A stretch of 23,602 nucleotides of DNA, from assembly GCA_025774805.1 (NCBI GenBank), contig JALGZR010000061.1:1-23602 (forward strand), written 5' to 3'. Positions within the stretch are counted from its first letter, which is position 1, and every line of letters starts with the position of its first letter. The position numbers and the translations under genes were made by a program. The notes below the pieces were generated by a model. That model made no database searches. It saw only the letters and a list, made by a program, of their open reading frames with translations, and had not been told where the DNA came from. Below, in pieces: positions 4,694 to 21,786 of this stretch. The DNA is from a bacterium (GTDB taxonomy: Bacteria; ARS69).

Positions 4694-6064
4694 TCAGTCG
4701 ACGTAGCCCAGAGCGCGGAGCTTCTCCATCATCCGTTCGTCGGGAACCGTGAGGACGATGCGGGCCGGGGGCCGCGCCCGGAGCTGCTCCCGAAGGAGTC
4801 GCTCCATCCGTTCGAGCACGTCGGGGCGATCGGCGGCGACGTCGCGCCGCTCGGCAGTGTCGTTCGCGAGGTCGTAGAGCCGCCCGTCGTACCACTTCCA
4901 CCCTCCCACGCGGAGTGACGCCGTTTCGGTGCCGAGGTGCGCGTCCTGCCGGCTGAGCGCGGGCAGCTCCGGCCACGGCCCGTCGGGGCCGGCGGCGAGG
5001 ATCGGGAGAAGGTCCTCGCCCGCGAACTCCGGCGGCGAATCGAGGCCGAGCGCCGCGCACGCCGTCGGAGCGAGGTCGATTCCCCGGACCTGGGCGGTGA
5101 CGATGCGCCCGGCGTGCTCGGAGGGCGGCAGCTTCACGAGCAGCGGAACGAGAAGAAGCTCGTCATAGAGCGTGTGCGAGTGCCACCCGATCGATTCCCG
5201 TTCCCCGAACTCCTCCCCGTGGTCGGACGTGACGAGAATCGTGGTCCGATCGTACCGACCGCTCTCCTTCAGATAGGCGATCAACGCCGCGAAGGCCCGG
5301 TCGGCGGAACGAAGCTCGGCGTCGTAGGCGTCGACAATGTGCTGAACGTCGGCCGGCGACGTCGATACGGTCCCCGCGTTGATCCCCTGGATGAGATCGA
5401 GCGATATGGCGTCCGGAAGCGGCCCCGCGTACTCCCGCTCGAACCGCCTCAGCATCCTCGGATCGGGATCGTAGGGGTGGTGGATCTCGTACGTGTGTAG
5501 GAAGAGAAAGAACGGGTCGTCGGTCCTTCGCAACCACGCCAGGGCCCGTCGGACCTCCTGCTCGAAGCGGTTCTCCGGTCCCGCCAACGTCTCGGTGGGA
5601 TCTCTCTCCGAGTGCAGGCTCTCGTAGATCTCGAAGCCGCGGTCCAGTCCGAACGTCGGGTGGAGCTGGATCCCGCCGTTGAACGATGCGGTCCGGAAGC
5701 CGTGCTCTCGGAGGTGCTCCGCGAGAGTCAACCGATCAGGATCGACCTTCCACCCTCTCGGAATCGAGGCGCCGTGGTGGTAGGGGATCAGGGACGTCAG
5801 CATCGATGCGTGGGAGGGCAGCGTCGAGGGGGCGTGGGCCACGGCCCGCTCGAACTGGACGCAGTCGCGCGCGAAGCGGTCGATCGCCGGGGTCGTAGGA
5901 CGCGGATAGCCGTAGGAGCCGAGATGATCCGCGCGTAGGGTGTCAATGGAGATTAGGATCAGGTTCCGCCGGGAGCCGTGGTCCCGGTTTCGAAGCGACA
6001 CGACTCCGACCGCCACCGCGGCGACGATCAGGGACGGGACGAGAAGTTTGGTCGGAACCCGCAT
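4694..6064 (-). CDS. Sulfatase-fold (alkaline phosphatase superfamily) exported or anchored protein
   Basis: The 456-residue protein has an N-terminal hydrophobic signal or anchor (about 6-24) followed by the sulfatase fold. The first metal site is Asp41 in 'LISIDTLRADHLGSYGY' and the second is Asp281-His282 in 'TSDHGEEFGE', with His295/His297 downstream. The usual C/S-x-P-x-R formylglycine motif is absent: the aligned stretch reads Thr81-Leu-Pro-Ser-His85. So it probably is not a classical formylglycine sulfatase; Thr81 could be a nucleophile as in related phospho-transfer enzymes, or the true substrate may differ. The C-terminus 'KLRALGYVD' matches the tail of the second sulfatase-fold gene. 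recF follows downstream. No clear Shine-Dalgarno precedes the ATG at 6064. Confidence 0.85.
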   Translation of the reverse strand: MRVPTKLLVPSLIVAAVAVGVVSLRNRDHGSRRNLILISIDTLRADHLGSYGYPRPTTPAIDRFARDCVQFERAVAHAPSTLPSHASMLTSLIPYHHGASIPRGWKVDPDRLTLAEHLREHGFRTASFNGGIQLHPTFGLDRGFEIYESLHSERDPTETLAGPENRFEQEVRRALAWLRRTDDPFFLFLHTYEIHHPYDPDPRMLRRFEREYAGPLPDAISLDLIQGINAGTVSTSPADVQHIVDAYDAELRSADRAFAALIAYLKESGRYDRTTILVTSDHGEEFGERESIGWHSHTLYDELLLVPLLVKLPPSEHAGRIVTAQVRGIDLAPTACAALGLDSPPEFAGEDLLPILAAGPDGPWPELPALSRQDAHLGTETASLRVGGWKWYDGRLYDLANDTAERRDVAADRPDVLERMERLLREQLRARPPARIVLTVPDERMMEKLRALGYVD

Positions 6065-6571: not shown

Positions 6572-8611
6572 TCATTCTCCCTTGCGGCGACGCACTCTCT
6601 CGATGTGGCGCTGAATGGCCTCCTCGGTCTGTCGCCGTGCCTCGGGCAGGTGGCCGGGGTGCTCGTGCTCGTACATCTCCTCGGGCATGTTGCCCGTGAG
6701 CCAGCTCGGGTTCATCGGATAGACGTGGGGATGGAAGACCGTCGAGTACAGGTGCCAGATCAGGATCGCGAGCGACGCCAGCCACGCTTCGTAGAAGTGG
6801 ATCACCAGAGCGACGTCGAGAACGCCCTTGGGCAGGAAGCTGACGATCCAGTTGTCGTACCAGAGCATGATCCCGGTGATCACCATCACGGCGGTGCCCC
6901 AGACCAGGGCCCAATACTCCGCCTTCTCGACGTAGCTGAAGCGCTGGACGCAGCGAGCCTCCGGACGCAGACCGAGGTTGTGGAGAATCCTGTTGCCGAA
7001 GAATGTAAAGTCGCGCCGGGCGGGCATCATGTGGCGCAGAAACTCGCGCCCGCGCCAGGTCGCAAGATAGAACACGTGCCAGACGACCGTGATCATGAAG
7101 ATAATGGCCGCCGTGCGATGGACGTCTCCGCGGACCTCGAAGCCGCCCTCCCATCCGAAGAAGAGCCGACTGACCCACCCCTGGTCGTAGCGCAGGGCAA
7201 AGCCCGAGACCACGAGCACGATGAACGTTAAGGCCAACAGGGCGTGTTGAACCACCTCGTCGGGTCGCATCCGGAGCACCTGGGGTCGCTTCGTGATCAC
7301 GCGGCGAAGGTGGGTGGCCAGATCGATGATCCAGTGCAGCGCCATCAGGCCGATGATCACGACGATGGCGACGATGTAGATCCGCTCGACGACGGCGGCG
7401 GCCGGGGTCTGGAGTCCCTGTCCCCCGACGCCGTGGATCGGCCGGGCGGCCATCGCAGCGGAGATCCTCGGATGGCACTCTCCGCAGGTGTTCTGCAGGT
7501 TCTCCGGGTGGATGGTCGAGGTGGAGTCCGAGCTGGGAAGGATACGGTGCACACCGTGACAGGAGGCGCAGTTCGCCACGTGCGTGTCGCCGGCCTTGCT
7601 CTTGAGGCCGTGGTAGGAGTCGATGAACGTGGTCAGGCGGCCGGACTCGAGACCGTACTTCTCGTTGAGCACGGCCGACTCGTGGCACGGCGAGCAAGTC
7701 TTCTCCGCCACCTTGGACCTCGACACCGGGGAACGGGGATCGTCCGGCGAGAGGATGCCGTGCTCCCCGTGACAGTGCGTGCACACCGGTGCATCGGTCT
7801 CTCCCCGCGCCACGAGCTTGCCGTGGATTCCCTCCCAGAAGTCGTTCTCGATGCTCCGGTGGCACTGCCCGCACGTCTTGGGGATGTTGAAGTGGTTGAT
7901 ACTCGACTCGGGCGAGCCCGGGCTGAGGATCTTGTGAGCCGTTCCTCCGGTCGAATGGCAGTCGTTGCAGGTCGCGGCCACGTACACGCCGCCCTTGGAG
8001 GCCTGGCCGTGGATGGAGGAGTTGTAGATCCCGATCGGATGGTCGATGAGGATGTCGTACTTCGTCGTGATGTCGAGGTTCTCGTGGCACTTGCCGCACG
8101 TCTGGGGCAGGTTGATCGGGTGAACCGTGGACCGCTTGACGGAGGACGGCAGGACGTCGTGATCCCCATGGCAGTCGGAACAGTAGGGCATGTCCTCGCA
8201 ACCACCGCGGGGGATGCGCCCGTGCGCCTGGTACTGATCGGAAGCGTCTTCGTGACAGGAGCGGCAACCCTCGCAGCCGACGAAGAACTGCACGTCCGGG
8301 TCACGGTGGGGAACTGTGCCCTTGTGAAGGTGGCAATCGAGGCACTCCAGGCCCTCGTGAATCGAATGCGCCACGTCCTCGGCGTGGGCGAATCCGTTCG
8401 TGCTCTCCTCGTGACAGTCGGCGCAGGCCGAGCTGTCGATGGGCTCGTACTCCTCCTCCTCGATCTCCGGGGCGGAAACCCTTCCTTCCTCCGGCTCCTG
8501 GGCGAAAGCGGTACCGGTGCCCCCACCGACGACAGGCAGGAGGAGCCCGAGAAGGAGGAGCCCCACCATGAGGGGGGAGGTGCCTCTGCTGTCGTCGACC
8601 GTACGGGACAT
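6572..8611 (-). CDS. Undecahaem cytochrome c fused to a di-haem cytochrome b membrane domain
   Basis: The 679-residue protein has a signal peptide ending near 'AFA|QEP' (residue 37), then eleven CxxCH haem-c motifs between about residues 62 and 379. They are CADCH, CLDCH, CRSCH, CSDCH, CGKCH, CNDCH, CGQCH, CTHCH, CSPCH, CASCH and CGECH. The second half has about five membrane helices (near 409-428, 453-473, 497-517, 564-584, 600-625). Its histidines ('QHALLAL', 'VHRTAA', 'VWHVFYL', 'IHFYEAW', 'IWHLYS') resemble formate dehydrogenase gamma/thiosulfate reductase cytochrome b. It should pass electrons between the quinone pool and the periplasm. The haem region repeats a pattern: CHGxHxIL, then HPxNLxxTCGxCH. 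The ATG at 8611 directly precedes the signal peptide; the ribosome site is weak. The partner oxidoreductase is not in the window. Confidence 0.88.
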   Translation of the reverse strand: MSRTVDDSRGTSPLMVGLLLLGLLLPVVGGGTGTAFAQEPEEGRVSAPEIEEEEYEPIDSSACADCHEESTNGFAHAEDVAHSIHEGLECLDCHLHKGTVPHRDPDVQFFVGCEGCRSCHEDASDQYQAHGRIPRGGCEDMPYCSDCHGDHDVLPSSVKRSTVHPINLPQTCGKCHENLDITTKYDILIDHPIGIYNSSIHGQASKGGVYVAATCNDCHSTGGTAHKILSPGSPESSINHFNIPKTCGQCHRSIENDFWEGIHGKLVARGETDAPVCTHCHGEHGILSPDDPRSPVSRSKVAEKTCSPCHESAVLNEKYGLESGRLTTFIDSYHGLKSKAGDTHVANCASCHGVHRILPSSDSTSTIHPENLQNTCGECHPRISAAMAARPIHGVGGQGLQTPAAAVVERIYIVAIVVIIGLMALHWIIDLATHLRRVITKRPQVLRMRPDEVVQHALLALTFIVLVVSGFALRYDQGWVSRLFFGWEGGFEVRGDVHRTAAIIFMITVVWHVFYLATWRGREFLRHMMPARRDFTFFGNRILHNLGLRPEARCVQRFSYVEKAEYWALVWGTAVMVITGIMLWYDNWIVSFLPKGVLDVALVIHFYEAWLASLAILIWHLYSTVFHPHVYPMNPSWLTGNMPEEMYEHEHPGHLPEARRQTEEAIQRHIERVRRRKGE

Positions 8612-10693: not shown

Positions 10694-10900
10694 AGAATCC
10701 GACCACCCCCGCGCGGCCCGCCCGGGGGCGATTCCTATCTTCGCGGCCGTCGTGTACACTCCTGTCGACGATCCGGGGGCCTGCCCACGGCGGCGGCCCT
10801 TCGGGCGGTTCACGTAGGACGTTCCGGTTCCGGGCCCCGGCGGCGCGGACCCCCAACCCCCGGCAGCGGGGTGAGTTGCGCTCCGGGATCGAGGGGCATC

Positions 10901-13225
10901 ATGAGGCGATTCCTCCTTATTCTGACCAGCGCGGCGCTGGCGGCCGCGGCCGGCCTCTCCGGCCCGCTTCCCCCTCCCTCGTGGGGCTTCGACAAGGGAG
11001 TCCCCGACGATCCGGCGCTCCGGATCGAGGCCCCCCTGCTCCGGGGGAGTCCGGAGAGCCAGAAGCTCGATCCGCTGCTCCGGGAGGTTGTCCGCCGCAA
11101 CCGGAGTCGCTCCGAGGACCCCGCCCGTGCCCTGAGACGGCTCTCCTCCCTGATGAACGTCCGCCGAGACGCATCCGGCGAGACCCGGGTGTCCGTCCTG
11201 ATCCGCTCGGGCAATCCGGCCGAGACGGCATCCGGAATCCGCGCGCTCGGAGGCACCGTTCGAACCGTCGCCGGCGACGTGATCGTGGCCTCGTTTCCCC
11301 CGGGAGAGCTCGAGGCGCTGGCGGGCCGGGAGGAAGTCATCGCCGTGGAGGCGGGGGTCGTGCGGCATCCGCGGCTCGACCAGAGCCGCTGTGACGTCCG
11401 CGGCGACATGGTGCAGGCGGGACGAGGTCTCCAAACCCGCCTGACCGGGGCCGGGGTGGTCGCGGCGGTCCTCGACACGGGGATCGACTGGAAGCACGAC
11501 GACTTCAAGAACCCGGACGGGACGACGCGGATCCAGTTTCTCTGGGACATGACCGACACCGTGTCCCCGAACCCGCCGGCCGGATACACCTACGGGACCG
11601 AGTACACCGCCGCCCATATCGACGCCGGCGAGTGCAACCAGGTGGACTGGAACGGCCACGGCACCCACGTCACCGGAATCACCGCCGGCAACGGGGCGAT
11701 CGCCCCCGAGTACCGGGGAATGGCGCCGGACGCCGACATCTACTTCGTGAACGCGTACCTCGACATCGGGTTTCCGGAGGACTGGATCGTCGACGGCTGC
11801 GAGTACATGCTCGACAAGGCGGCCCAGCATGGCCGCCCCGCCGTCGTCAACCTGAGCCTCGGCGGCCATTTCGGTCCGCACGACGGGACGAGCAATTTCG
11901 AGAGAGGCCTGACGAACCTGGGAGGCGAGGGACGGATCATCGTGGCCGCCGCGGGGAACGAGGGCGACTTCCCGGTTCACCTCGGCTACGAGACGCGTCC
12001 CGGGACGGACTACTTCGATGCGCTCGAGTCCGCGTTCTACTCGTACACCGAAACCGGCGCGGCGGTGATCGACCTCTGGTACGACTCGGGAGACATCTCC
12101 GTCGGGATCGCCGTGTACGACGCCCTGGGACGGCTTCTCGGGTACACCGATCCGGTGCCGCCCGGTGCGAGCATCAGCGAGGTACCCGTCCCCTCTCTCG
12201 CGCCCAAGGGCATAATCACCATCGACGCCGAGACGGTTTCGGATCCCAACAACGGAGCGCACCGGATCGTGGTCGTGGTCGACTCCCAAGAGGGGACCTT
12301 CGATACCGGCTCCGTCTTTTGGTCGCTGTTCACCTTCGGGACCGGTGAGTTCGACGCGTGGATCGAGGCCGGGCTCTTCCTCGAGTTCGAGGGAGAGTGG
12401 CGGCGGGTCGGCGACACGTCGAGCACTGTCGGGCTTCCGGCGACGGCCCCGGGCGTCCTCTGTATCGGCTCGTACGTGACGAAGAACCGTTGGGTGGACA
12501 TCGACGGACGCGAGCAGATCCGGTACGGGCCCCTCGGCGGTCCGGCGGAGATCGGGATGATCTCCTCGTTCAGCAGCCACGGTCCCACGCGGGACGGGCG
12601 GCGCAAGCCCGACCTCTGCGCCCCGGGCGAAGCGATCGTGTCCGCGCTGTCGTCGGACCGGGAGTACATCAGCCGCCGGTTGGTGGTCCGGACCGGAAGG
12701 CACCGGGTGGCGCAGGGCACCAGCATGGCGAGCCCGCACGCGGCGGGTGTGATCGCGCTCCTGCTCGAGGCGGATCCGACTCTCGACTCGGACGATGCGC
12801 TCACCCTGCTGACCACGAGCGCACGGACCGATGCCCGCACCGGGGACGAACCGGACAACGTCTACGGCACCGGCAAGCTCGACGCCCTGGATGCCGCTCT
12901 CCAGGTCGGGATCGCGCCGAGCGACCTGGCCCGCCGAGATCTCCTTCTCGCTCCGAGCTTCCCCAACCCCACGTCGGGAAGCACGACGCTCGCGTATCGC
13001 GTCCCGGGGGACCCGGGGACTCCGGTCCCGACCGAGATCACCGTCTACGATCTCTCGGGACGGTTGCTGGCCACCCTCGTGGACGGACCCCTGGTCCCCG
13101 GCGAGTATCAGATCTCCTGGGACGGTGTCGACACCAACGGCCGGAGGGCGACGGCGGGAGTCTACTTCTACCGGATCGAGGTCGGAGGGCGCGAGCAGTC
13201 GAGGAAGTTCGTGCTGTTGCGGTGA
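10901..13225 (+). CDS. Secreted subtilisin-family (S8) serine protease with C-terminal FlgD-like sorting domain
   Basis: I chose ATG 10901 because GAGGGG sits 4 bases upstream and a signal peptide follows at once (MRRFLLILTSAALAAAAG). A propeptide-like region ('SVLIRSGNPAETASGIRALG' onward) comes next. The S8 triad is Asp192 ('AVLDTGIDWKHDDF'), His253 ('NGHGTHVTG') and Ser608 ('QGTSMASPHAAGV'), with the oxyanion Asn in 'AAAGNEGD'. The His-Ser spacing of about 355 residues reflects a beta-rich insertion around 375-520. Residues about 683-774 form a FlgD-Ig/T9SS-type domain ('SFPNPTSGSTTLAYRV', 'VYDLSGRLLATL', 'AGVYFYRIEVGG', 'RKFVLLR'), which in FCB-group bacteria targets proteins to the surface. 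It probably digests extracellular protein. It stands alone; its stop is 21 bases before the tRNA-end remnant. Confidence 0.93.
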   Translation: MRRFLLILTSAALAAAAGLSGPLPPPSWGFDKGVPDDPALRIEAPLLRGSPESQKLDPLLREVVRRNRSRSEDPARALRRLSSLMNVRRDASGETRVSVLIRSGNPAETASGIRALGGTVRTVAGDVIVASFPPGELEALAGREEVIAVEAGVVRHPRLDQSRCDVRGDMVQAGRGLQTRLTGAGVVAAVLDTGIDWKHDDFKNPDGTTRIQFLWDMTDTVSPNPPAGYTYGTEYTAAHIDAGECNQVDWNGHGTHVTGITAGNGAIAPEYRGMAPDADIYFVNAYLDIGFPEDWIVDGCEYMLDKAAQHGRPAVVNLSLGGHFGPHDGTSNFERGLTNLGGEGRIIVAAAGNEGDFPVHLGYETRPGTDYFDALESAFYSYTETGAAVIDLWYDSGDISVGIAVYDALGRLLGYTDPVPPGASISEVPVPSLAPKGIITIDAETVSDPNNGAHRIVVVVDSQEGTFDTGSVFWSLFTFGTGEFDAWIEAGLFLEFEGEWRRVGDTSSTVGLPATAPGVLCIGSYVTKNRWVDIDGREQIRYGPLGGPAEIGMISSFSSHGPTRDGRRKPDLCAPGEAIVSALSSDREYISRRLVVRTGRHRVAQGTSMASPHAAGVIALLLEADPTLDSDDALTLLTTSARTDARTGDEPDNVYGTGKLDALDAALQVGIAPSDLARRDLLLAPSFPNPTSGSTTLAYRVPGDPGTPVPTEITVYDLSGRLLATLVDGPLVPGEYQISWDGVDTNGRRATAGVYFYRIEVGGREQSRKFVLLR

Positions 13226-13246
13226 GCGGGCGGGGGTGCGGGGAGG

Positions 13247-13351
13247 CCGCGGGTTCGATTCCCGCCGCCTCCACCACTAAGTGTTTTTAAATCAAATGTT
13301 TACGGCTTCGCAACAAGCCGTCTCCAGATATTCTCCGTGAAAATGTGTGGC
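13247..13351 (+). repeat. Left att-like unit: tRNA 3' end (with CCA) plus 53-bp arm block
   Basis: Bases 13250-13276 are a textbook tRNA 3' end: T-stem GCGGG/CCCGC around the loop TTCGATT, acceptor strand CGCCTCC, discriminator A and encoded CCA. No D-arm or anticodon arm precedes it; the protease stop lies 21 bases upstream. Bases 13247-13273 match 17204-17230 at 26 of 27 positions. After 25 more bases a 53-bp block (13299-13351) aligns without gaps to 17253-17305 at 36 of 53 positions, ending in AATGTGTGGC. A tRNA 3' end followed by element-specific sequence is how integrase attachment sites usually look. Confidence 0.7.
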
Positions 13352-13417
13352 TGGGGGTTAGGTCAATAGGATCTCGTGGCACTAGGGGCCACATTGGGGT
13401 TTGGACTGATCTCAGAG

Positions 13418-13484
13418 GGTGATCAGTGATCGGTGAAAGGCGGCCTGATGAGAATCAGCCGATCATCCAGCGATGATCATCACC
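13418..13484. repeat. Nested inverted repeat rich in TGATC
   Basis: Three paired arms nest in order: GGTGAT (13418-13423) with ATCACC (13479-13484), TGATCGG (13427-13433) with CCGATCA (13459-13465), and CTGAT (13445-13449) with ATCAG (13454-13458). GATC recurs five times between about 13408 and 13480. It could be an operator or recombination-accessory site for the lipid cassette, or a structured leader RNA. Confidence 0.5.
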
Positions 13485-13696
13485 TCGTCCCGACTTGTCT
13501 GATGCGCTTGTGACAGACCGAATTCTCGCACGGCAGAGGACAACGCTGTCTGCTGGTCCGCACCCCAATCTCGCACCAATAGACCCACAAGATTCCGAGT
13601 TTCCTTCCGTTGCCTAGCGGACTAACCTGAACAGGCCTTCTCAGCCGTCGCCCCGAACGACGACACGGTCCGGCGTTCCCGGGCGGAGGGTCCGGA

Positions 13697-14566
13697 ATGG
13701 GAGTCGACTGGCAGGCCATCGTTCCGCTGATCGTTCTCGGTGTCCTCTCCGTCGTACTTGCGGTGCGCCGCGCCCGGCGCCCCACAAATCCTCCCGCCAT
13801 TCCATGGGCCTACCTCTGGGCGTTCTTTCTCGTCTTTGGCGTGGCCGAGTGGGTGTCCTTCTCCGTCGCCGTCTGGATCCTCGCACTCCTCTCCTTCCAC
13901 GCGCTGCGCGAGTACTTCTCGCTTCTCGATCTCCGCCTCGCCGATCGCTGGGGGATCCTCGGCGCGTACCTGTCGATTCCCGGGATGACGTATCTCATAC
14001 AGATCAACTGGTACGGCTTCTTCATCATATCGATTCCCGTCTACGTGTTCCTCGTCATCCCGTTCCTCGTGGCCCTGGGTGGCCCGGATCCGAAGGGCAG
14101 CGTGCTATCGGTCGGCGCGATCGACTTCGGGCTCTTCTTCTTCGTCTTCTGTCTGGGGCACGTGGGGTACCTCGTGTTCTTCAGTCGCTGGATGGCGATC
14201 CTGGTCATCGTTGGGGTGACCGGTTGCGACGCGCTGCTGCGTGCGCTCGGTCCCAAGCGGCCCTTCGCTCTCCGGTACGTCGCGTGCGCGGCCTTCGTTC
14301 TGGTGCTCGCGTGGGGGCTGCGTTCGTGGACGTGGATTCCTTCCACGCAGACGATCGCGGTGGGGCTGTTCATTCCGGGGCTCGTACTCATGGGGCGGTT
14401 CACGCTCGAGAAGCTCGAGGCCGATCTCGGGATCGGTTCGCGCCCGCTCGAACCGGGCCGCGGGCTCGTCGTCGACTCGCTTCGCTCCTACCTGTTCACC
14501 GCACCGGTGATCTTCCACTACCTGCGCTGGAGCCTCCGGTTCGGTGATCGCCCCTGGGCGCCATGA
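13697..14566 (+). CDS. CdsA-like (CDP-DAG synthase family) integral membrane protein, catalytic motif degenerate
   Basis: The 289-residue protein has about eight hydrophobic helices. Its C-terminal stretch 'EPGRGLVVDSLRSYLFTAP' followed by 'VIFHYLRW' aligns with the phosphatidate cytidylyltransferase ending, where canonical enzymes read PGHGGxxDRxDSxxF. Asp260 is kept, but the second Asp of DRxD is Arg263. The region that normally carries the S-x-K-K-x-x-E cytoplasmic motif reads 'LGPKRPFALRYVACAA'. So it has the family fold, but activity as a CDP-diacylglycerol synthase is doubtful. The start ATG has GGAGGG 6 bases upstream. It overlaps the acyltransferase-kinase gene by 4 bases (ATGA), which implies translational coupling. 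It could be a scaffold, transporter or altered nucleotidyltransferase for lipid. Confidence 0.7.
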   Translation: MGVDWQAIVPLIVLGVLSVVLAVRRARRPTNPPAIPWAYLWAFFLVFGVAEWVSFSVAVWILALLSFHALREYFSLLDLRLADRWGILGAYLSIPGMTYLIQINWYGFFIISIPVYVFLVIPFLVALGGPDPKGSVLSVGAIDFGLFFFVFCLGHVGYLVFFSRWMAILVIVGVTGCDALLRALGPKRPFALRYVACAAFVLVLAWGLRSWTWIPSTQTIAVGLFIPGLVLMGRFTLEKLEADLGIGSRPLEPGRGLVVDSLRSYLFTAPVIFHYLRWSLRFGDRPWAP

Positions 14567-15993
14567 AACGAGGGCACTCACTCTCGGGTCGGACTCTCGT
14601 ACATCGTGGCCTTCTCCGCCCGACACTGCGTCTCCTCTTCGGGGTTGGCCTGCACGGGCGTGAGAATGTCCCGGACGAGGGCGCGTTCGTGCTGGCCGCG
14701 AACCACAACAGCCACCTCGACGTGTTGCTGCTCTTCGCAGCGCTGCCGGCCCGGCGCATTCGCGACACGCGAGCGCTGGCCGCGAAGGACTACTTCGCTC
14801 GCAACCGTGTGCTGTTCCGTATAGTCGAATTCCTGTTCCGCCCCATCTGGGTCGATCGGGAAAAGGGTGGGGGTGATCCCATCGGCGAGATGCGCGCCCA
14901 TCTCGACGGGGGTGGCGGCGTCATCGTGTTTCCGGAGGGAACGCGCGGCGAGCCGGGGCATCTCGCGTCCTTCCGCGGCGGAGTTGGGCGTGTTGTTGAG
15001 AGCCGTCCTGGGCTCCCGGTGATTCCTGCGTTCCTACTAGGGCCGGAGCGCGCTCTGCCGCGCGGCGCGCTCGTGCCGCTGCCTCTCTGGAACCACGTCT
15101 TCCTTGGACCGCCGCAGGTTCTCTCGGGGAAGGCCGAGGACGTGACGCGCGGGTTGCAGGAGGCGATTGTCGCGCTGGCCGAGTCAGAGACGGCGAACTC
15201 CCACCGACGGCGGCCGGAAAAGCGGGAGGCGTTCGTCGTCGCGATCCTCGGGATCGACGGGTCGGGCAAGAGCACGCTCGCGCGACGGCTTGCAATGGAG
15301 ACCTCGGCCGATGCGCGGACGTGTCTCATCGGCGACGTCCTGGAACTCTTCGCGGAAGGTGCGCCCCGCACTGCCCAGCCGCTCCTCGTGGAGAAGCTCC
15401 GGGCATGGGTCAACCGACGGGCGAAGGCCGCAAAGAGCCTCGCCTTCTATAAGGTCCCGAAGATCGCCGAGCTCCTGCTGCGCGACGCACTGCTCGGCGA
15501 GGCGAAGCGCTGGTACGGACCGGACCTGGTGTTCATGGACGGCTCGCCTCTGCTCAACATGACGGCGTGGTCGGTCCTTTACCGGGAAGAGTTCTTCGAC
15601 GAGGCATTCTGCGCGCAGGCGCTCGGTGTCCTATCGGGATGGCGTGAGGTGACAGCCGGCGATCCGATCCTGCGACACTTTCCGGAGCTGACCGCGATGC
15701 GGCGGCTTGGCCTCGTGCCGCTCGCCCTGCCCGACGCGGTCTGCTTCCTCGACGTCGACCCGGCGGTGTCCATGGAGCGCATCCGTCGCCGCGGCGAGGC
15801 GGTGCAGGTCCACGAAACCGAAGAGAAGCTGGCCAAGCTGCGCGAGGCGTACCGTGTCGTGATCGCAGCGTACGAGCGGGAGTTCGGGCGACCGGCGCGG
15901 GCGCTGGGCGGCGACCGGGACGTCAAGGCAGTGACCGCTGAGGGATTGGTGTTCCTCGCGGAAGCGCAGGAGAAGCGGAGGGTAGGGCCGTGA
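14563..15993 (+). CDS. Lysophospholipid acyltransferase (PlsC type) fused to thymidylate-kinase-like P-loop kinase
   Basis: The 476-residue protein has two domains. Residues 1-205 are a PlsC/LPLAT acyltransferase with the catalytic N47-H-N-S-H-L-D53 (HX4D) and acyl-acceptor F123-P-E-G-T-R128. It would attach an acyl chain to a lyso-lipid at the membrane. Residues about 222-476 are a P-loop kinase of the thymidylate/deoxynucleoside kinase style: Walker A G230-I-D-G-S-G-K-S-T238, 'MDGSPLLNMTAWSVLY' and 'CFLDVDPAVSMERIRRRGE', which resembles the TMP-kinase Arg/lid region. The acceptor of the kinase is unknown. The start ATG overlaps the preceding stop (ATGA) and the stop overlaps the next start (GTGA). 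The fusion implies acylation and phosphorylation of connected substrates. Confidence 0.85.
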   Translation: MKRGHSLSGRTLVHRGLLRPTLRLLFGVGLHGRENVPDEGAFVLAANHNSHLDVLLLFAALPARRIRDTRALAAKDYFARNRVLFRIVEFLFRPIWVDREKGGGDPIGEMRAHLDGGGGVIVFPEGTRGEPGHLASFRGGVGRVVESRPGLPVIPAFLLGPERALPRGALVPLPLWNHVFLGPPQVLSGKAEDVTRGLQEAIVALAESETANSHRRRPEKREAFVVAILGIDGSGKSTLARRLAMETSADARTCLIGDVLELFAEGAPRTAQPLLVEKLRAWVNRRAKAAKSLAFYKVPKIAELLLRDALLGEAKRWYGPDLVFMDGSPLLNMTAWSVLYREEFFDEAFCAQALGVLSGWREVTAGDPILRHFPELTAMRRLGLVPLALPDAVCFLDVDPAVSMERIRRRGEAVQVHETEEKLAKLREAYRVVIAAYEREFGRPARALGGDRDVKAVTAEGLVFLAEAQEKRRVGP

Positions 15994-16991
15994 GCGAGCG
16001 AGTCGAGGTGATCGCCACGACCATCTCGGGTTCAATCCGGGACTGGGCGAAGATCGAGCGCATCGTGCCGCTGTTCGCGGAGCACGGCTTCGAGGACGCG
16101 CGACTCTGCGCGGTGGATAGCCATCGGGCTGCCCGGGAGAGGGCCTGCCACGTACTGAAAGAGGGAAGTCGTCGCCTGATCTCGGCCGGTGGGTCGGGGA
16201 CGTTCAACGCGGTGCTCGAAGGCTGCTGCGACTCGGGCGTGCCGCTCAGCGACATCCGCCTTGGCTTCTTGCGGAAGGGTTCGGCCGATCTCATCGGCAA
16301 GGTGCTCGAGATGCCCGATGACATCGAGTCGGCGATCGCGGTGTTCGCGGAGTCGCTACGCGGCGAGCACACGGAGCCGTGCGACGTGCTGTCGGCCGAG
16401 GATGGAGCGGGCGGCGGCGTGCCGCGCCACTTCGTGGGCTACGGTGGGGCCGAGATCTTCGGGCGCATCCCACACTTCACCGAGAACCGCTTCATGAAGT
16501 GGTATAAGGGCGTGCTCAGTCAGACGTTCGGCGACCTCGGACCGTTTACCATGGGGATGACGCTGGCGCTGCTGGAGAAGGTGATCAAGTGGCCAGCGCG
16601 GCGGCGCTGGACGATCATCGTCAATGGCCGGCCGGTTGCCGAGGGGCGCTTCCTCGCGCTCATCATCGTGAACGGCTGGCTCGGCCCCGACCTCCCCTTC
16701 TCGAAGGATCGGCTCGGGTCGGGGCGCTTCGAGCTCTTCGCCTTGCGCGATCTCGGCCTGGCGCGCCTGCCCGGGCAAGCGCGCCGCGCCCGCAATGGGT
16801 CGATCGAGCGGGACCCGGAGCCTTGGGGTCTCGAGGAGTACCCGGTGACCGAGTCGCTGGAGCTCGCGGTCGCGGACGGCGGCGCGTTTCCGGTAAATGT
16901 GGACGGGTCCACACTCGACTGTCACGGGTCGGCCCGGTTCGGGCGGGTGGACCGGATTCCGCTGATGGCGCGAGGCGAGCCTGGCGCCTGA
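15990..16991 (+). CDS. Diacylglycerol/sphingosine-kinase-fold lipid kinase homologue with altered GGDGT motif
   Basis: The 333-residue protein follows the DAGK catalytic fold (YegS/DgkB type). 'RRLISAGGSGTFNAVLEG' aligns with the family's GGDGTxNEVxNG, and 'IRLGFLRKGSADLIGK' with the LGxxPxGTANDFAR segment. The later beta-sandwich shows 'IIVNGRPVAEGRFLALIIVNG' and 'GSGRFELFALRDL'. The Asp of GGDGT is Ser69 and the Glu of NEV is Ala, so ATP/Mg handling may differ or be lost. Start: GTG at 15990, overlapping the previous stop, with GGAGGG 8 bases upstream. It is the last gene of the coupled lipid operon. It may phosphorylate a diacylglycerol-like lipid, possibly together with the upstream kinase domain, or bind lipid without catalysis. 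Confidence 0.75.
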   Translation: MSERVEVIATTISGSIRDWAKIERIVPLFAEHGFEDARLCAVDSHRAARERACHVLKEGSRRLISAGGSGTFNAVLEGCCDSGVPLSDIRLGFLRKGSADLIGKVLEMPDDIESAIAVFAESLRGEHTEPCDVLSAEDGAGGGVPRHFVGYGGAEIFGRIPHFTENRFMKWYKGVLSQTFGDLGPFTMGMTLALLEKVIKWPARRRWTIIVNGRPVAEGRFLALIIVNGWLGPDLPFSKDRLGSGRFELFALRDLGLARLPGQARRARNGSIERDPEPWGLEEYPVTESLELAVADGGAFPVNVDGSTLDCHGSARFGRVDRIPLMARGEPGA

Positions 16992-17085
16992 TCCGGATCC
17001 TGCCGCGCTTCAGCAGGCGGGGGCTCCCGGTGGGCGCTACAGGAACCCTTACCCGCGGCCTCCAGAGGGGTCTCCATCGACGGGG

Positions 17086-17125
17086 GTCGACTGCTGTAGA
17101 CTGCTGTAGACTCCTGTCGACTCAA
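17086..17125. repeat. Four 10-bp tandem repeats next to the right att-like unit
   Basis: The units are GTCGACTGCT, GTAGACTGCT, GTAGACTCCT and GTCGACTCAA at 17086, 17096, 17106 and 17116. The spacing of one helical turn fits repeated binding of one protein on one DNA face. Lying 80 bases from the tRNA-end copy, they resemble integrase arm-type sites. No equivalent is visible beside the left copy. Confidence 0.6.
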
Positions 17126-17203
17126 TCGCCGTCGTAAGTGCCTGGGTTTCGAACCCCTTGCGCCGTAAGTCGCGCAGCATCAACGCGTTAAGGAATGCCA
17201 CTT

Positions 17204-17305
17204 CCGCGGGTCCGATTCCCGCCGCCTCCAGTATCTCTTGCCAAGTCAACGATTTACAACTTCGAGAAAAGTGATCTCCGAAACATCTGTGGGGAAATGT
17301 GTGGC
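17204..17305 (+). repeat. Right att-like unit: altered tRNA 3' end plus 53-bp arm block
   Basis: Bases 17204-17230 repeat the left tRNA end with one change: the T-loop reads TCCGATT, losing the nearly invariant T55. After the discriminator A the sequence is GTA, not CCA. It therefore cannot be part of a working tRNA, and no tRNA body precedes it. After 22 bases the 53-bp block (17253-17305) aligns ungapped with the left one, including TCTCC and AAATGTGTGGC. Together with the left copy it bounds the three-gene lipid cassette. Confidence 0.68.
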
Positions 17306-17386
17306 GAGGAGCCAGAGGCTGCCATCCGTCTTCACGCCTCAGCACTCGGCCGCCGATCGTGCTGCTGTTCGGATGATCCCGCGGGC

Positions 17387-18307
17387 TCAGTGGAACAGGG
17401 ATGGCCAGATAATCCTGCCGAGTAGTCTGGTCAGCTCCATGCTGAGGATCGAGCCGAAGAACCCGGCGATGATGGCCAGGTTGATATGAAGAGCGGCGTG
17501 CGCTATGCGATTCTCCCGAACGTACCGGATGTGCAGTTTTGTGCTTCGCCATGAGAACCACGCCATCGGCGCCAAGAACATGAAGAGGAATACGAGTCCC
17601 AGAACCACAAGGAACAGAATCGCCGCCGTTTCGGCTCCGGGAATGGCTGGCAGGGAACTCATCCCGGGAACCGTGAGCACGAGCCCGCCGACGATCTGCA
17701 TGGAGAACCCCCACAGGAACCAACCGCCAAGCCCCAGCACCAGCATGCCGAGCTTTCTGTTCTTGTGGAACAGTCGGACCAGGGTCGAGCGATCCTGCGA
17801 AGCGCCTGCCCGCAAAGCCCTTTGGGCCGCCCGGCGCGTGAGTACGCGATACGTTCGAACCCCGAAGATGACAGTTGCGATCGCGAAGACAATCCCGGAC
17901 AGGATGATCCAGTCCAGCACAGCGTCGCCGTTCGGAACCGGGCCGACCATCGGGGAAGGTGGCGGGTTACTCTCAATTACCGCGAGTGCACGTTCGCCCG
18001 CGTGTCGACGAACTTCCGCCTGTATGAGCGCCGAAATCAATCCTCCGAGCATGACGCAGCCGATGAGGAGGTAGACAACAAGTCGGGTGAGCGATGTGTG
18101 GATCAGTCCATCGCGGATCAATCGCACGAACCCGCGGACCCCCGGATCTGTCGGCCTCCTCTCGATAGATCGAGCGGCGCGATGGAGGTGACGGAAACCG
18201 ACAAGACCCAAAATGGCCGCCAGGGAGAGCCCCAGCGATGGACCGAGACCCCAGAGGATCCCCATGAGCCACAGCTGGAATTCCGAGGTCGAATCCACGA
18301 TGTTCAC
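17387..18307 (-). CDS. Six-helix membrane protein of unknown function
   Basis: I do not recognise this 306-residue protein. About six hydrophobic helices are visible near residues 12-37, 73-96, 130-152, 187-213, 226-250 and 272-297. The loops are basic on one face, including 'TRRAAQRALRAGAS' and 'FHKNRKLG'. No catalytic motif stands out. The start is GTG at 18307 with only a weak purine-rich site upstream. GC content is visibly lower than in the rest of the window: the line at 17521 has 34 G+C in 60, against 46 in 60 at 2341 (hand count). It lies just beyond the right att-like unit, opposite in strand to the lipid operon, and follows a small two-helix gene by 36 bases, so the two are probably one transcription unit. 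Confidence 0.7.
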   Translation of the reverse strand: MNIVDSTSEFQLWLMGILWGLGPSLGLSLAAILGLVGFRHLHRAARSIERRPTDPGVRGFVRLIRDGLIHTSLTRLVVYLLIGCVMLGGLISALIQAEVRRHAGERALAVIESNPPPSPMVGPVPNGDAVLDWIILSGIVFAIATVIFGVRTYRVLTRRAAQRALRAGASQDRSTLVRLFHKNRKLGMLVLGLGGWFLWGFSMQIVGGLVLTVPGMSSLPAIPGAETAAILFLVVLGLVFLFMFLAPMAWFSWRSTKLHIRYVRENRIAHAALHINLAIIAGFFGSILSMELTRLLGRIIWPSLFH

Positions 18308-18653: not shown

Positions 18654-18724
18654 CTAGCCTGCATTTCTCACCAGGCGCGGCCTTGCCGCGGCCGCAGCAG
18701 AGGCTGGTGAGATATGCAGGCTAG
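18654..18724. repeat. 21-bp near-perfect inverted repeat (arms 20/21) with 29-base spacer
   Basis: The left arm at 18654-18674 begins CTAGCCTGCATTTCTCACC. The right arm at 18704-18724 begins CTGGTGAGATATGCAGG and is its reverse complement except at one position. The spacer contains GCGGCCGC. No T-run follows on either strand. It could be a solo MITE-like or REP-like element, the far end of the accessory region, or a strong RNA hairpin. Confidence 0.65.
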
Positions 18725-18949: not shown

Positions 18950-21745
18950 TCAATTCGCCGCGCTCGCTCGCTCCGGCTTCGCCTGCAACTCCTCCAGCCT
19001 GGCTCTCCACTCGGCGGCGTTCTCGTCGTGCCCCGCGCCCGGCTCTGCGGCGTGCCAGGCGTCCTGAAGGTCGATGAGAGCGGCCAGCGCCTTCACGCGA
19101 TCCTTCACCTTCACCTTCTCCAATCCGTTGAGGATCGCGAAGGCCTCGTTCAGGTCCGCCTCCGCCTCGAGAAACGAACCCGTCGCGGCGCGGGATTGAC
19201 CGAGTGTCAGGAGGAAGGGGCCGAGACGGCGGATATTGCCGCCGGTGAACGTCTGCCGCGCTGCCGCTTCCGCCGGTGACATGAGGGCGACGGCCTCCTC
19301 GGGCTTGCCCATCGAGTTGAGCAGGTCGCCCAGGTTGGTGATGGAGGTCAGCGTTTGCGGGTGGTCGTCCCCCAGCACGCGGCGGCATCCCTCCACGGTC
19401 TCCTCGAGGTACGGAAGAGCCTCGTCGAGATTTCCCATCGACCGGAGCAGCGTGCCCAGGTTGTTCATCGTCACCAGCGTGTTCGGGTGATCGTCCCCGA
19501 GCACGCGCCGGCATCCCTCCGCCGTCTGCTTGAAGTAGGGGAGAGCCTCGTCGAATCTGCCCATCGATTCGAGAAGGTTACCCAGATTGTTGGTCGAGCT
19601 CAGCGTATGCGGGTGGTCGTGTCCCAGCACTCGGCGACGCCCCTCCAACGCTTTCTCGTAGAAGGGGAGGGCCTCGTCGAGCTTGCCCATCGACTTGAGC
19701 AGGGACCCCATATTGTTGGTCGAGATCAACGTCTCTTGGTGATCGTCTCCGAACAAGAGGCGAAATCCCTCCAGTGCCTCCTCGGCGTAAGGGAGGGCCT
19801 CGTCGAGCTTGCCCAATCCCTGGAGCAATGCGGCCATGTTCTCGATCGAAGAGATCGTCTTCGGGTGGTCGTCACCGAGGACTCTGCGATATCCCTCCAG
19901 CGATTCCCGACCGTAGACGAGTGACTCTTCGAGACGTCCCATCCAATGGAGCAGCAAACCCATTTCGTTGATGGATTCCAACGTCACCGCGTTGTCGTCG
20001 CCCAGTATCCGGCGTCGGGTCTCGAGGGCCGCCTCCTGCAATGGAACCGCCGGCGGATATCGTCCTAGCTCCCGATACGTGATCGAGACGGTCTGTCGCA
20101 GGGCGGCCTGGATCAGCGGCTGGTCGGCGAACTCCTCTTCGATGGTCGCGACCGCCCGCTGCAACATGTGCCCATCCACCAGGCCGAGCGCAACGTCCGT
20201 CGAGTTGACGCGGCGGAGAGTCCTATCGAACACGGCCAGCGCCGTTTCCACCTCCTGCGGCGAGGCTCCCTCCGCTTCCAGCGACTCCAGCACGCCCTCG
20301 TGCAGATCGGCGACCAGCGCCTGTCCCATCTCCTTGATATCGATCCCGCTCAACATCGACGCCTGGAACTCCGTGACCAGCTCCAACTCCTCCGCCCGCG
20401 CTTGCGCCTCGGCCCGCGCCCGTTCCGCCGCCTCGGCCTCCTGGTTCGCTCTGTCTCGCTCACGGGCAATGCGCTGTGATTGGATTCGCTCCCGGCCCGC
20501 GAAGCCCAGAAGCAGCAGCGCGGCAACGGCAGCGAGGGTCACTCCCACTCGGTGCCTGAGGAAAAACTTGCCCATCCGGTAGCCGGTACTCGGAGGACCG
20601 GCCATCACCGGCTGGTGGTGCAGGTAACGATCGATGTCGGCGGCAAACTCGGAGGGTGATGCGTAACGTCGTGTTCGGTCCTTTTCCAACGCCTTCATCG
20701 TGATCCAGTCTAGATCTCCGCGGAGTCGGCCGGTCAACCGAGTGGGGTCGGTTCCACGGCTGAGAGCGGCCGTCTCGGAATCGTCACCGAGGCTCTCCAC
20801 ACGCGTGCTCGGTCGCGGTGGCTCCTGCTCACGGAGGATTCTCAGGATTCCCTCGAAGCCGGCCTTCCGGAGGTCTCGCGGATCGAACGGGGGCGCGCCG
20901 GCGAGCAGTTCGTAAAGAACGGCACCGAGTGAGTAGATGTCCGTGCGAGTGTCGATGTTCTCGCCTGTCATCTCGGCCTGTTCAGGGCTCATGTATGACG
21001 GTGTCCCGACCAGTTGGCCCAACTGGGTGACGAGCGTTCGCTGGGTCAGAGGGTGACCCATTGCTTTGGCGACGCCGAAGTCGATGATCTTCGGAACCGG
21101 GCTCCCCTCGTGCGTGGACACCAGGATGTTCGAGGGCTTGATATCCCGGTGAATGACAGCCTTCTGGTGTGCATGTTGAATCCCGTTGCAGACCTGTACG
21201 AAGAGTGCAAGGCGCTCTTGAATGGGCAGGCGGTGTCGGTCGCAGTGCTCCGTGAGCGGCGCGCCGCGAACGTACTCCATGGCGAAGTACGGACGTCCCT
21301 CGTCGGTGCTCCCGGCGTCGAATACCCTGGCGACGTTCGTATGGTCCATCAGCGCAAGGGCTTGGCGTTCGGCCTCGAAGCGGGCGATCACCTGCTCCGT
21401 GTCCATGCCGCGTTTGATCACCTTGAGCGCCACGCGTCGCCGAATCGGCTCCTCCTGCTCCGCCTCGTAGACCTCGCCCATGCCTCCTGCACCAATCCTC
21501 TGCAGGATCCGGTACGGGCCGATGCGTGTGGGCATCGCCTGTCGCCGTGGAGTCTCGCCGGTCTTGGTAGAAGCCTCGGTACCGAGCTCCTGCGCCGCGT
21601 GATCGCGAAGTCGGCTCTCGACGACGGTTCTCAACCCGACGTCATTCGCACAGCGTTCGGTGAGGAACCGCTCTCGAGCGTCGGGGGGAAGCGCAAGCGC
21701 CTCGCGGAAGATCTCATCTACCTTCTTGCGGTCATCGTCCTCCAC
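18950..21745 (-). CDS. Membrane Ser/Thr protein kinase (PknB type) with C-terminal kinesin-light-chain-like TPR array
   Basis: The 931-residue protein has a short N-terminal helix region common to this kinase type ('VDEIFREALALPPDARERF'). A full Hanks kinase domain spans about 80-375: Gly-rich loop GAGGMGEVY, catalytic Lys108 in 'VALKVIK', Asp200 in 'HRDIKPSN', Asp221 in DFG, and 'MSPEQ' replacing APE. A single membrane helix follows at about 399-415, then a coiled coil rich in Arg/Ala/Glu (417-460). The C-terminus is an array of six 42-residue TPRs ('RRVLGDDHPxTLxSxxNLGxLL'). The kinase is cytoplasmic and the TPRs probably extracytoplasmic. I prefer GTG 21745, with CGGGAG 8 bases upstream, over GTG 21754, where that site would be too close. 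A good promoter precedes it. Substrates are unknown. Confidence 0.92.
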   Translation of the reverse strand: MEDDDRKKVDEIFREALALPPDARERFLTERCANDVGLRTVVESRLRDHAAQELGTEASTKTGETPRRQAMPTRIGPYRILQRIGAGGMGEVYEAEQEEPIRRRVALKVIKRGMDTEQVIARFEAERQALALMDHTNVARVFDAGSTDEGRPYFAMEYVRGAPLTEHCDRHRLPIQERLALFVQVCNGIQHAHQKAVIHRDIKPSNILVSTHEGSPVPKIIDFGVAKAMGHPLTQRTLVTQLGQLVGTPSYMSPEQAEMTGENIDTRTDIYSLGAVLYELLAGAPPFDPRDLRKAGFEGILRILREQEPPRPSTRVESLGDDSETAALSRGTDPTRLTGRLRGDLDWITMKALEKDRTRRYASPSEFAADIDRYLHHQPVMAGPPSTGYRMGKFFLRHRVGVTLAAVAALLLLGFAGRERIQSQRIARERDRANQEAEAAERARAEAQARAEELELVTEFQASMLSGIDIKEMGQALVADLHEGVLESLEAEGASPQEVETALAVFDRTLRRVNSTDVALGLVDGHMLQRAVATIEEEFADQPLIQAALRQTVSITYRELGRYPPAVPLQEAALETRRRILGDDNAVTLESINEMGLLLHWMGRLEESLVYGRESLEGYRRVLGDDHPKTISSIENMAALLQGLGKLDEALPYAEEALEGFRLLFGDDHQETLISTNNMGSLLKSMGKLDEALPFYEKALEGRRRVLGHDHPHTLSSTNNLGNLLESMGRFDEALPYFKQTAEGCRRVLGDDHPNTLVTMNNLGTLLRSMGNLDEALPYLEETVEGCRRVLGDDHPQTLTSITNLGDLLNSMGKPEEAVALMSPAEAAARQTFTGGNIRRLGPFLLTLGQSRAATGSFLEAEADLNEAFAILNGLEKVKVKDRVKALAALIDLQDAWHAAEPGAGHDENAAEWRARLEELQAKPERASAAN
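19290..20040 (-). repeat. 126-bp tandem repeats coding the TPR array
   Basis: The protein's 42-residue TPR repeats give a 126-bp DNA period. The start of each unit ('GGTGATCGTCCCCGAGCACG' in one copy) recurs near 19362, 19488, 19612, 19739, 19864 and 19990. The two central pairs are most alike, suggesting recent duplication or gene conversion. Such arrays can gain or lose units in frame. Confidence 0.75.
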
Positions 21746-21786
21746 GGCAGCCACTCCCGAGCGGGGGTTGAGGTAGCTCGGACCGA

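Follow-up and report, generated by a model that had tools for sequence, protein, structure and literature searches.

What are the ends of a gene cassette that lies between two copies of an RNA-gene 3' end and has no recombinase in sight? The question is raised by a stretch of 23,602 nucleotides (the window: contig JALGZR010000061.1 of assembly GCA_025774805.1) from a bacterium of GTDB lineage ARS69. The assembly is a MAG of 284 contigs with 5% contamination. As set out below, we consider it probable that the repeats are att sites of tyrosine-integrase islands that target ssrA, the tmRNA gene, and that 13247-17230 is such an island, about 4 kb long and integrase-less.

Origin of the repeated core

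The two copies, at 13247-13273 and 17204-17230, share one orientation and 26 of their 27 bases. CCA follows copy 1 (13274-13276) and is absent after copy 2. Farther 3', at offsets of 25 and 22 bases, the best ungapped alignment of 53-bp blocks has 36 identities; when 1,958 pairs of positions were drawn at random from this window, the maximum was 31/53 and none reached 36. Positions, identities and offsets are those that a first-pass annotation had already given from the letters alone. That annotation also took the repeat for the end of a tRNA gene, and in this it was wrong. The repeat represents the 3' terminus of the host genome's own tmRNA gene, ssrA, which is the sole intact RNA gene in the genome with such a 3' end. 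It resides on another contig (C190), is 351 bases long and encodes the tag ADENLALAA; its acceptor 5' strand, predicted earlier to be GGAGGCG, is GGGGGCG, pairing with CGCCTCC. The gene is intact and in one piece, which rules out a permuted or two-piece tmRNA.

In a search of the same genome, the 23-mer GGGTTCGATTCCCGCCGCCTCCA has perfect matches on C190, on C114 and at copy 1 of the window; copy 2 of the window, C215, C16 and C244 match it with one or two mismatches. The att core of copy 1 accordingly spans 13247-13276 on the forward strand, CCA included, and that of copy 2 spans 17204-17230 on the same strand, with one mismatch and without CCA. Neither copy is attached to an RNA body, as had been noticed before. 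(ARAGORN predicts a tRNA-Arg at 13185-13276. We read it as spurious, built on a genuine T-arm, because it overlaps the coding end of an S8 peptidase gene whose stop is at 13225.)

Integrase tails and arms

Downstream of ssrA on C190 lie a gene for a small HTH protein (PF12728) and one for an intact tyrosine integrase of 408 aa (PF00589, E 5e-28). The integrase gene is oriented towards ssrA, its stop codon is 16 bases before the ssrA 3' end, and its product ends in GDIVETGEAGFGSL; the contig ends 3.1 kb downstream of ssrA, within the element. As a query, this integrase has nine matches genome-wide and none of them is on the window contig, in keeping with the earlier impression that no integrase is in view at the locus. 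That an integrase gene might be found elsewhere has been borne out: apart from the one beside ssrA, an intact relative with 55% identity is present in G003 (contig C2), a genome of the same family and another genus.

The reverse complement of the block behind copy 1 reads GEYLETACCEAVNI and a stop, in the same frame as the end of the C190 integrase. On the minus strand, the translation after copy 1 ends in THFHGEYLETACCEAVNI, that at the C114 copy in THFHGGYPETAFLEAVSL and that on C261 in GGIPETVSCGAVSL, each directly before a stop; an integrase remnant beside tRNA-Met on C253 ends in FGEILETG and a stop. Since these minus-strand tails match the terminus of the C190 enzyme, the 53-bp block contains the terminal part of an integrase gene, now decayed, that abuts the att core. 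What had been called an arm block is thus an arm, but not an arm alone. (At C114:34907-35121 a GC-rich insertion of about 90 bp lies inside the integrase tail, flanked by the 13-bp direct repeat GTGAAAATGTGTG; it resembles a small mobile repeat with its target duplication.)

The left, integrase-side arm of copy 1 occupies 13277-13352 and carries GTCTCC/TTCTCC direct repeats, the GTCTCC/TCTCC elements being spaced by about 11 bases. At the other end of the island, 17070-17203 on the forward strand is the presumptive right arm, in which TRF finds 3.4 copies of a 10-bp direct repeat, GACTGCTGTA, at 17089-17122. Both sets of repeats are candidate arm-type sites, to which the integrase would bind.

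These arms were tested independently across genera. Separate left-arm and right-arm profiles were made from G003 copies only, with the core removed, and searched against about 250 kb of contigs of the present genome. The left-arm profile has only four matches there, on C259 (window copy 1, E 1.7e-5; E 1.5e-20 with the genome model), C16, C114 and C261. With the right-arm profile there is a single match, at window 17070-17207, upstream of copy 2, with an E of 0.018 that is weak taken by itself. No right-arm-like sequence was seen to the left of copy 1, so that on this side only the core marks the junction. Because core-less profiles from another genus recover both the window blocks and the upstream arm, the units are read as att sites, each with an upstream arm, a core and a downstream arm, and with arms that are conserved across genera. 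A whole-unit model of 126 positions (threshold E 0.05) was built from some of the genome's own copies, whose scores in it are not independent; its matches number 13 in the host genome itself, 16 in G003, three in G002, four in G004 and none in G001. The blocks do recur genome-wide, as an unrelated dispersed repeat might, but they do so within the att unit. The first-pass view of two diverged att sites that share one orientation and stem from the 3' end of an RNA gene is supported.

A second left arm and integrase tail, ending in THFPTDVSEITFLEVVNR and a stop in minus-strand translation, directly follows copy 2 (17231-17308; genome model, E 1e-12). It appears to be the remnant of a second island, and lends support to the earlier suggestion of tandem insertions with cargo and without an integrase between the sites. 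The first gene behind it (17387-18307, minus strand) encodes 306 aa and has no Pfam match, and no third core that might close the second island is found within the window. (Two other features lie farther to the right. A 28-nt inverted repeat, 86% complementary and with a 15-nt loop, occupies 18654-18724, between genes, ahead of a kinase gene; that gene, at 18950-21754, encodes a Ser/Thr kinase fused to TPR repeats and contains, at 19286-20041, a DNA repeat with a period of 126 bp in five copies.)

Contig C253 of the same genome offers a control with a different RNA gene. An intact tRNA-Met is followed there by a terminator-like hairpin, a left arm and a decayed integrase; about 11 kb downstream there is a tRNA-Met 3'-end copy in the same orientation, with a left arm of its own. 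This is the textbook pattern of tandem islands, and the main difference from the window is that the RNA body is present.

Two further units carry yet other RNA-gene ends. The one at C261:30919-31033 combines a C114-like left arm with a different tRNA-like 3' end, GGGTTCGATTCTCGCGGCCCCTACCA, which has no other occurrence within three mismatches in the genome, nor was an intact tRNA with that end found there; either the tRNA that it targets is missing from the assembly or the element has switched target. In G003, contig C5 has a pair of units (6706-6836 and 11855-11974) in which a third RNA-gene (tRNA) 3' end, TTCAAATCCTGTCCCCGCTACCA, is joined to a hairpin and a GTCTCC arm. The two units share one orientation, are 5 kb apart and have no RNA body at either place.

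Cargo and the units of related genomes

Between the arms, 13697-16991 is filled by three overlapping genes on the forward strand, a lipid-type operon. The first (13697-14566) encodes a membrane protein of 289 aa with a weak CTP_transf_1 match (Pfam E 0.005, below the cut-off); the second (14563-15993), a 476-aa acyltransferase (PF01553, E 3.8e-19) fused to a thymidylate-kinase-like domain (PF02223, E 1.5e-9); the third (15990-16991), a 333-aa protein of diacylglycerol-kinase type (PF00781, E 8.4e-9). The operon is conserved, gene order included, in Krumholzibacteriia, Gemmatimonadota, Acidobacteriota, Aminicenantes, Zixibacteria and Bacteroidetes. The product of the second gene has 42-60% identity to its homologues in distant phyla; the first has 45-60% identity to the neighbours of those homologues in nine distant loci, and the third 54-67% in distant loci. 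The full operon was not detected in the four relatives from the same family (G001-G004), although one of them, G002, is about 100% complete; the search gave only matches to the acyltransferase domain there, at about 34-36% identity. This distribution fits horizontal acquisition. An ancestral block of operon and repeats in conserved synteny, which would have spoken against an island, is not what is seen: the operon is conserved across phyla, and the distant loci hold it without ssrA-type repeats.

Units of the same type are most numerous in G003, where there are at least 12, on several short contigs (positions 5862, 3108 and about 1516 of C57 are examples), with 1.3-3.3 kb between neighbours and one orientation on every multi-unit contig. 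Sequence is conserved from about -150 to +300 around the core and the flanks beyond align at chance level. Because conservation stops so near the core, att units joined to different cargo seem to be at hand here, not duplications of whole segments. Downstream, the conserved stretch reaches into the first part of a beta-helix gene, one of a repeated, paralogous family, so duplication contributes as well. Some of the G003 units have no core, and G003 C73 and G003 C114 contain short integrase fragments. (Many of the predicted secreted beta-helix and propeller-like proteins, on G003 C57, C114 and C180, share a C-terminal W(G/A)xxK(A/S/N)xYR, with TWGRIKAVYR, SWGQTKSMYR and SWAQVKARYR as examples. 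The motif is also found antisense on the present genome's own C253, near 54.5-55 kb, and looks like a protein-sorting tail of the lineage.) G001, G003 and G004 gave no tmRNA match above the family cut-off, which in the case of G003 could be due to an assembly gap at an ssrA array.

The G003 units invite an integron-like reading, in which integrase-less cassettes with ssrA-derived att units would be moved in trans by the ssrA-resident integrase or by a relative's homologue. It is a possible explanation of the same anatomy, and the number, common orientation and close spacing of the units, the confinement of their conservation to the surroundings of the core and the presence of intact integrases in both genomes all agree with it. 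Against it are the several units that lack a core or hold broken pieces of an integrase, and the entry of the shared stretch into the beta-helix genes, to which homologous duplication would contribute. The sites in the window are RNA-gene 3' ends with arms, unlike integron attC sites. We do not favour this reading and hold it to be unlikely. The same facts are accounted for by old islands whose integrase has decayed, together with integration in tandem and at secondary sites, and for these there are direct precedents. A more far-reaching version would have this small candidate phylum shuffle cassettes of 1-4 kb, integrase-less and bounded by two-armed tmRNA-3'-end att units, in trans by means of one ssrA-resident tyrosine integrase and to ectopic sites also, with many of the G003 cassettes coding for secreted beta-helix proteins; that is likewise unlikely.

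The recF region and the precedents

An S8 peptidase gene (10871-13225, forward strand; PF00082, E 1.4e-44), with a FlgD-like C-terminal domain in its product, forms the left flank of copy 1, its stop codon lying about 20 bases before the repeat. Outward from it come sulfatases, a cytochrome and then recF-DUF721-gyrB, so that the repeat pair is about 9 kb from recF, on a contig that has no ssrA body upstream. It is mildly odd that an island should be found beside core chromosomal genes and not beside the tmRNA gene. The relatives keep recF and DUF721 together, their synteny to the right of recF is uninformative, and a relative with an empty site is not among the collection's five genomes of the phylum, each of a different genus.

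Could the contig be an assembly chimera, in which the recF contig was misjoined to a contig of the ssrA array at an exact repeat of about 35 bp? Copy 1 and the C114 copy do have about 35 identical bases, and the MAG is fragmented and somewhat contaminated. On the other hand, the words with which most assemblers end are longer, copy 1 has a unique flank and no sharp break in composition is seen; even if the join were false, the two copies would remain, together with the island that they bound. We regard a chimera as quite improbable. Slighter still are the prospects of a single long tandem array downstream of ssrA, of which the window contig would be a distal piece. The shared core, the scatter of units over several contigs and the end of the ssrA contig within an element are compatible with such an array, but gyrB-DUF721-recF, conserved in relatives, is upstream of copy 1. 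Because the recF cluster should not separate ssrA from a member of its array, a secondary site or a rearrangement is favoured instead. That the T-arms match by chance, or that the repeat is a dispersed one of unrelated origin, might be suggested by the abundance and likeness of tRNA 3' ends, but is scarcely credible in the face of the arm-profile tests, the null distribution, the integrase-tail reading and the controls provided by intact ssrA and tRNA-Met.

The preferred reading, decayed ssrA-type islands, would then run as follows. Islands targeting ssrA brought att core, integrase and cargo, and arrays arose as further islands inserted into cores already present. One such array, or an ancestor of it, would have reached the recF region, most likely by way of a secondary site, or else by rearrangement. 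A second island would then have integrated in tandem at an att copy and decayed; its remnant starts directly behind the first island. The integrase genes would have decayed to the tails that overlap the left arms, leaving the first island with a left att core, an integrase tail, the three-gene operon, a right arm and a right att core, presumably immobile at present.

Such islands are already well known. The closest precedent is in Dehalococcoides, in which over a dozen ssrA 3'-end repeats, in one orientation and in tandem, bound islands (vcr-GI and others) that are associated with a serine recombinase, DsiB; 15 of 31 islands there have no integration module, the integrase 3' end overlaps attL and all repeats are within 100 kb downstream of ssrA (PMC3146451). 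Direct repeats of the ssrA 3' end, integrase-less islands and an integrase end at attL are common to both systems. They differ in that the enzyme beside ssrA is here a tyrosine recombinase (PF00589), and in that the window pair is beside recF/gyrB and not downstream of ssrA, a difference on which the contig breaks leave some doubt.

The islands of the Islander set have a tyrosine integrase, a 3' fragment of the target gene as an end marker, an attP of about 250 bp and tandem arrays; by definition they contain an integrase and have the intact target gene at one of their ends (PMC4383910). The window island has the RNA-gene 3' fragment as a direct repeat at its ends. It has no intact RNA gene at one end, as there is on C190 (ssrA) and on C253 (tRNA-Met), and no tyrosine integrase inside, only the C-terminal tail at each left arm. 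Since the strict definition does not hold at this locus, we class the island as a remnant or a variant, short of full membership. SGI1 of Salmonella targets the 3' end of thdF, and its use of a secondary site and its tandem arrays are documented (PMC2297512). It would resemble the present case in both respects, but its target is a protein gene.

There is one more point of comparison, in the terminators. A hairpin resembling a substitute terminator is seen in G003 units and at the ssrA of G002, and none is clear at the window copies; the pattern of core plus hairpin was also absent from a scanned collection of viral contigs. The enterobacterial elements that Williams treated in 2003 as tmRNA gene traffic reportedly form ssrA arrays and bring a substitute ssrA terminator beside the core, a feature that they would share with G003 and G002 more clearly than with the window.

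Two anonymous repeats from a little-known lineage can thus be understood as the boundaries of an integrase-less island of ssrA type. The att-unit signature, consisting of an RNA-gene 3' end, a GTCTCC-type left arm over an integrase tail and a GACTCCWGT-type right arm, could be used to find cargo that integrase-based island finders miss. If the G003 units are actively exchanged, they would constitute a new cassette system.
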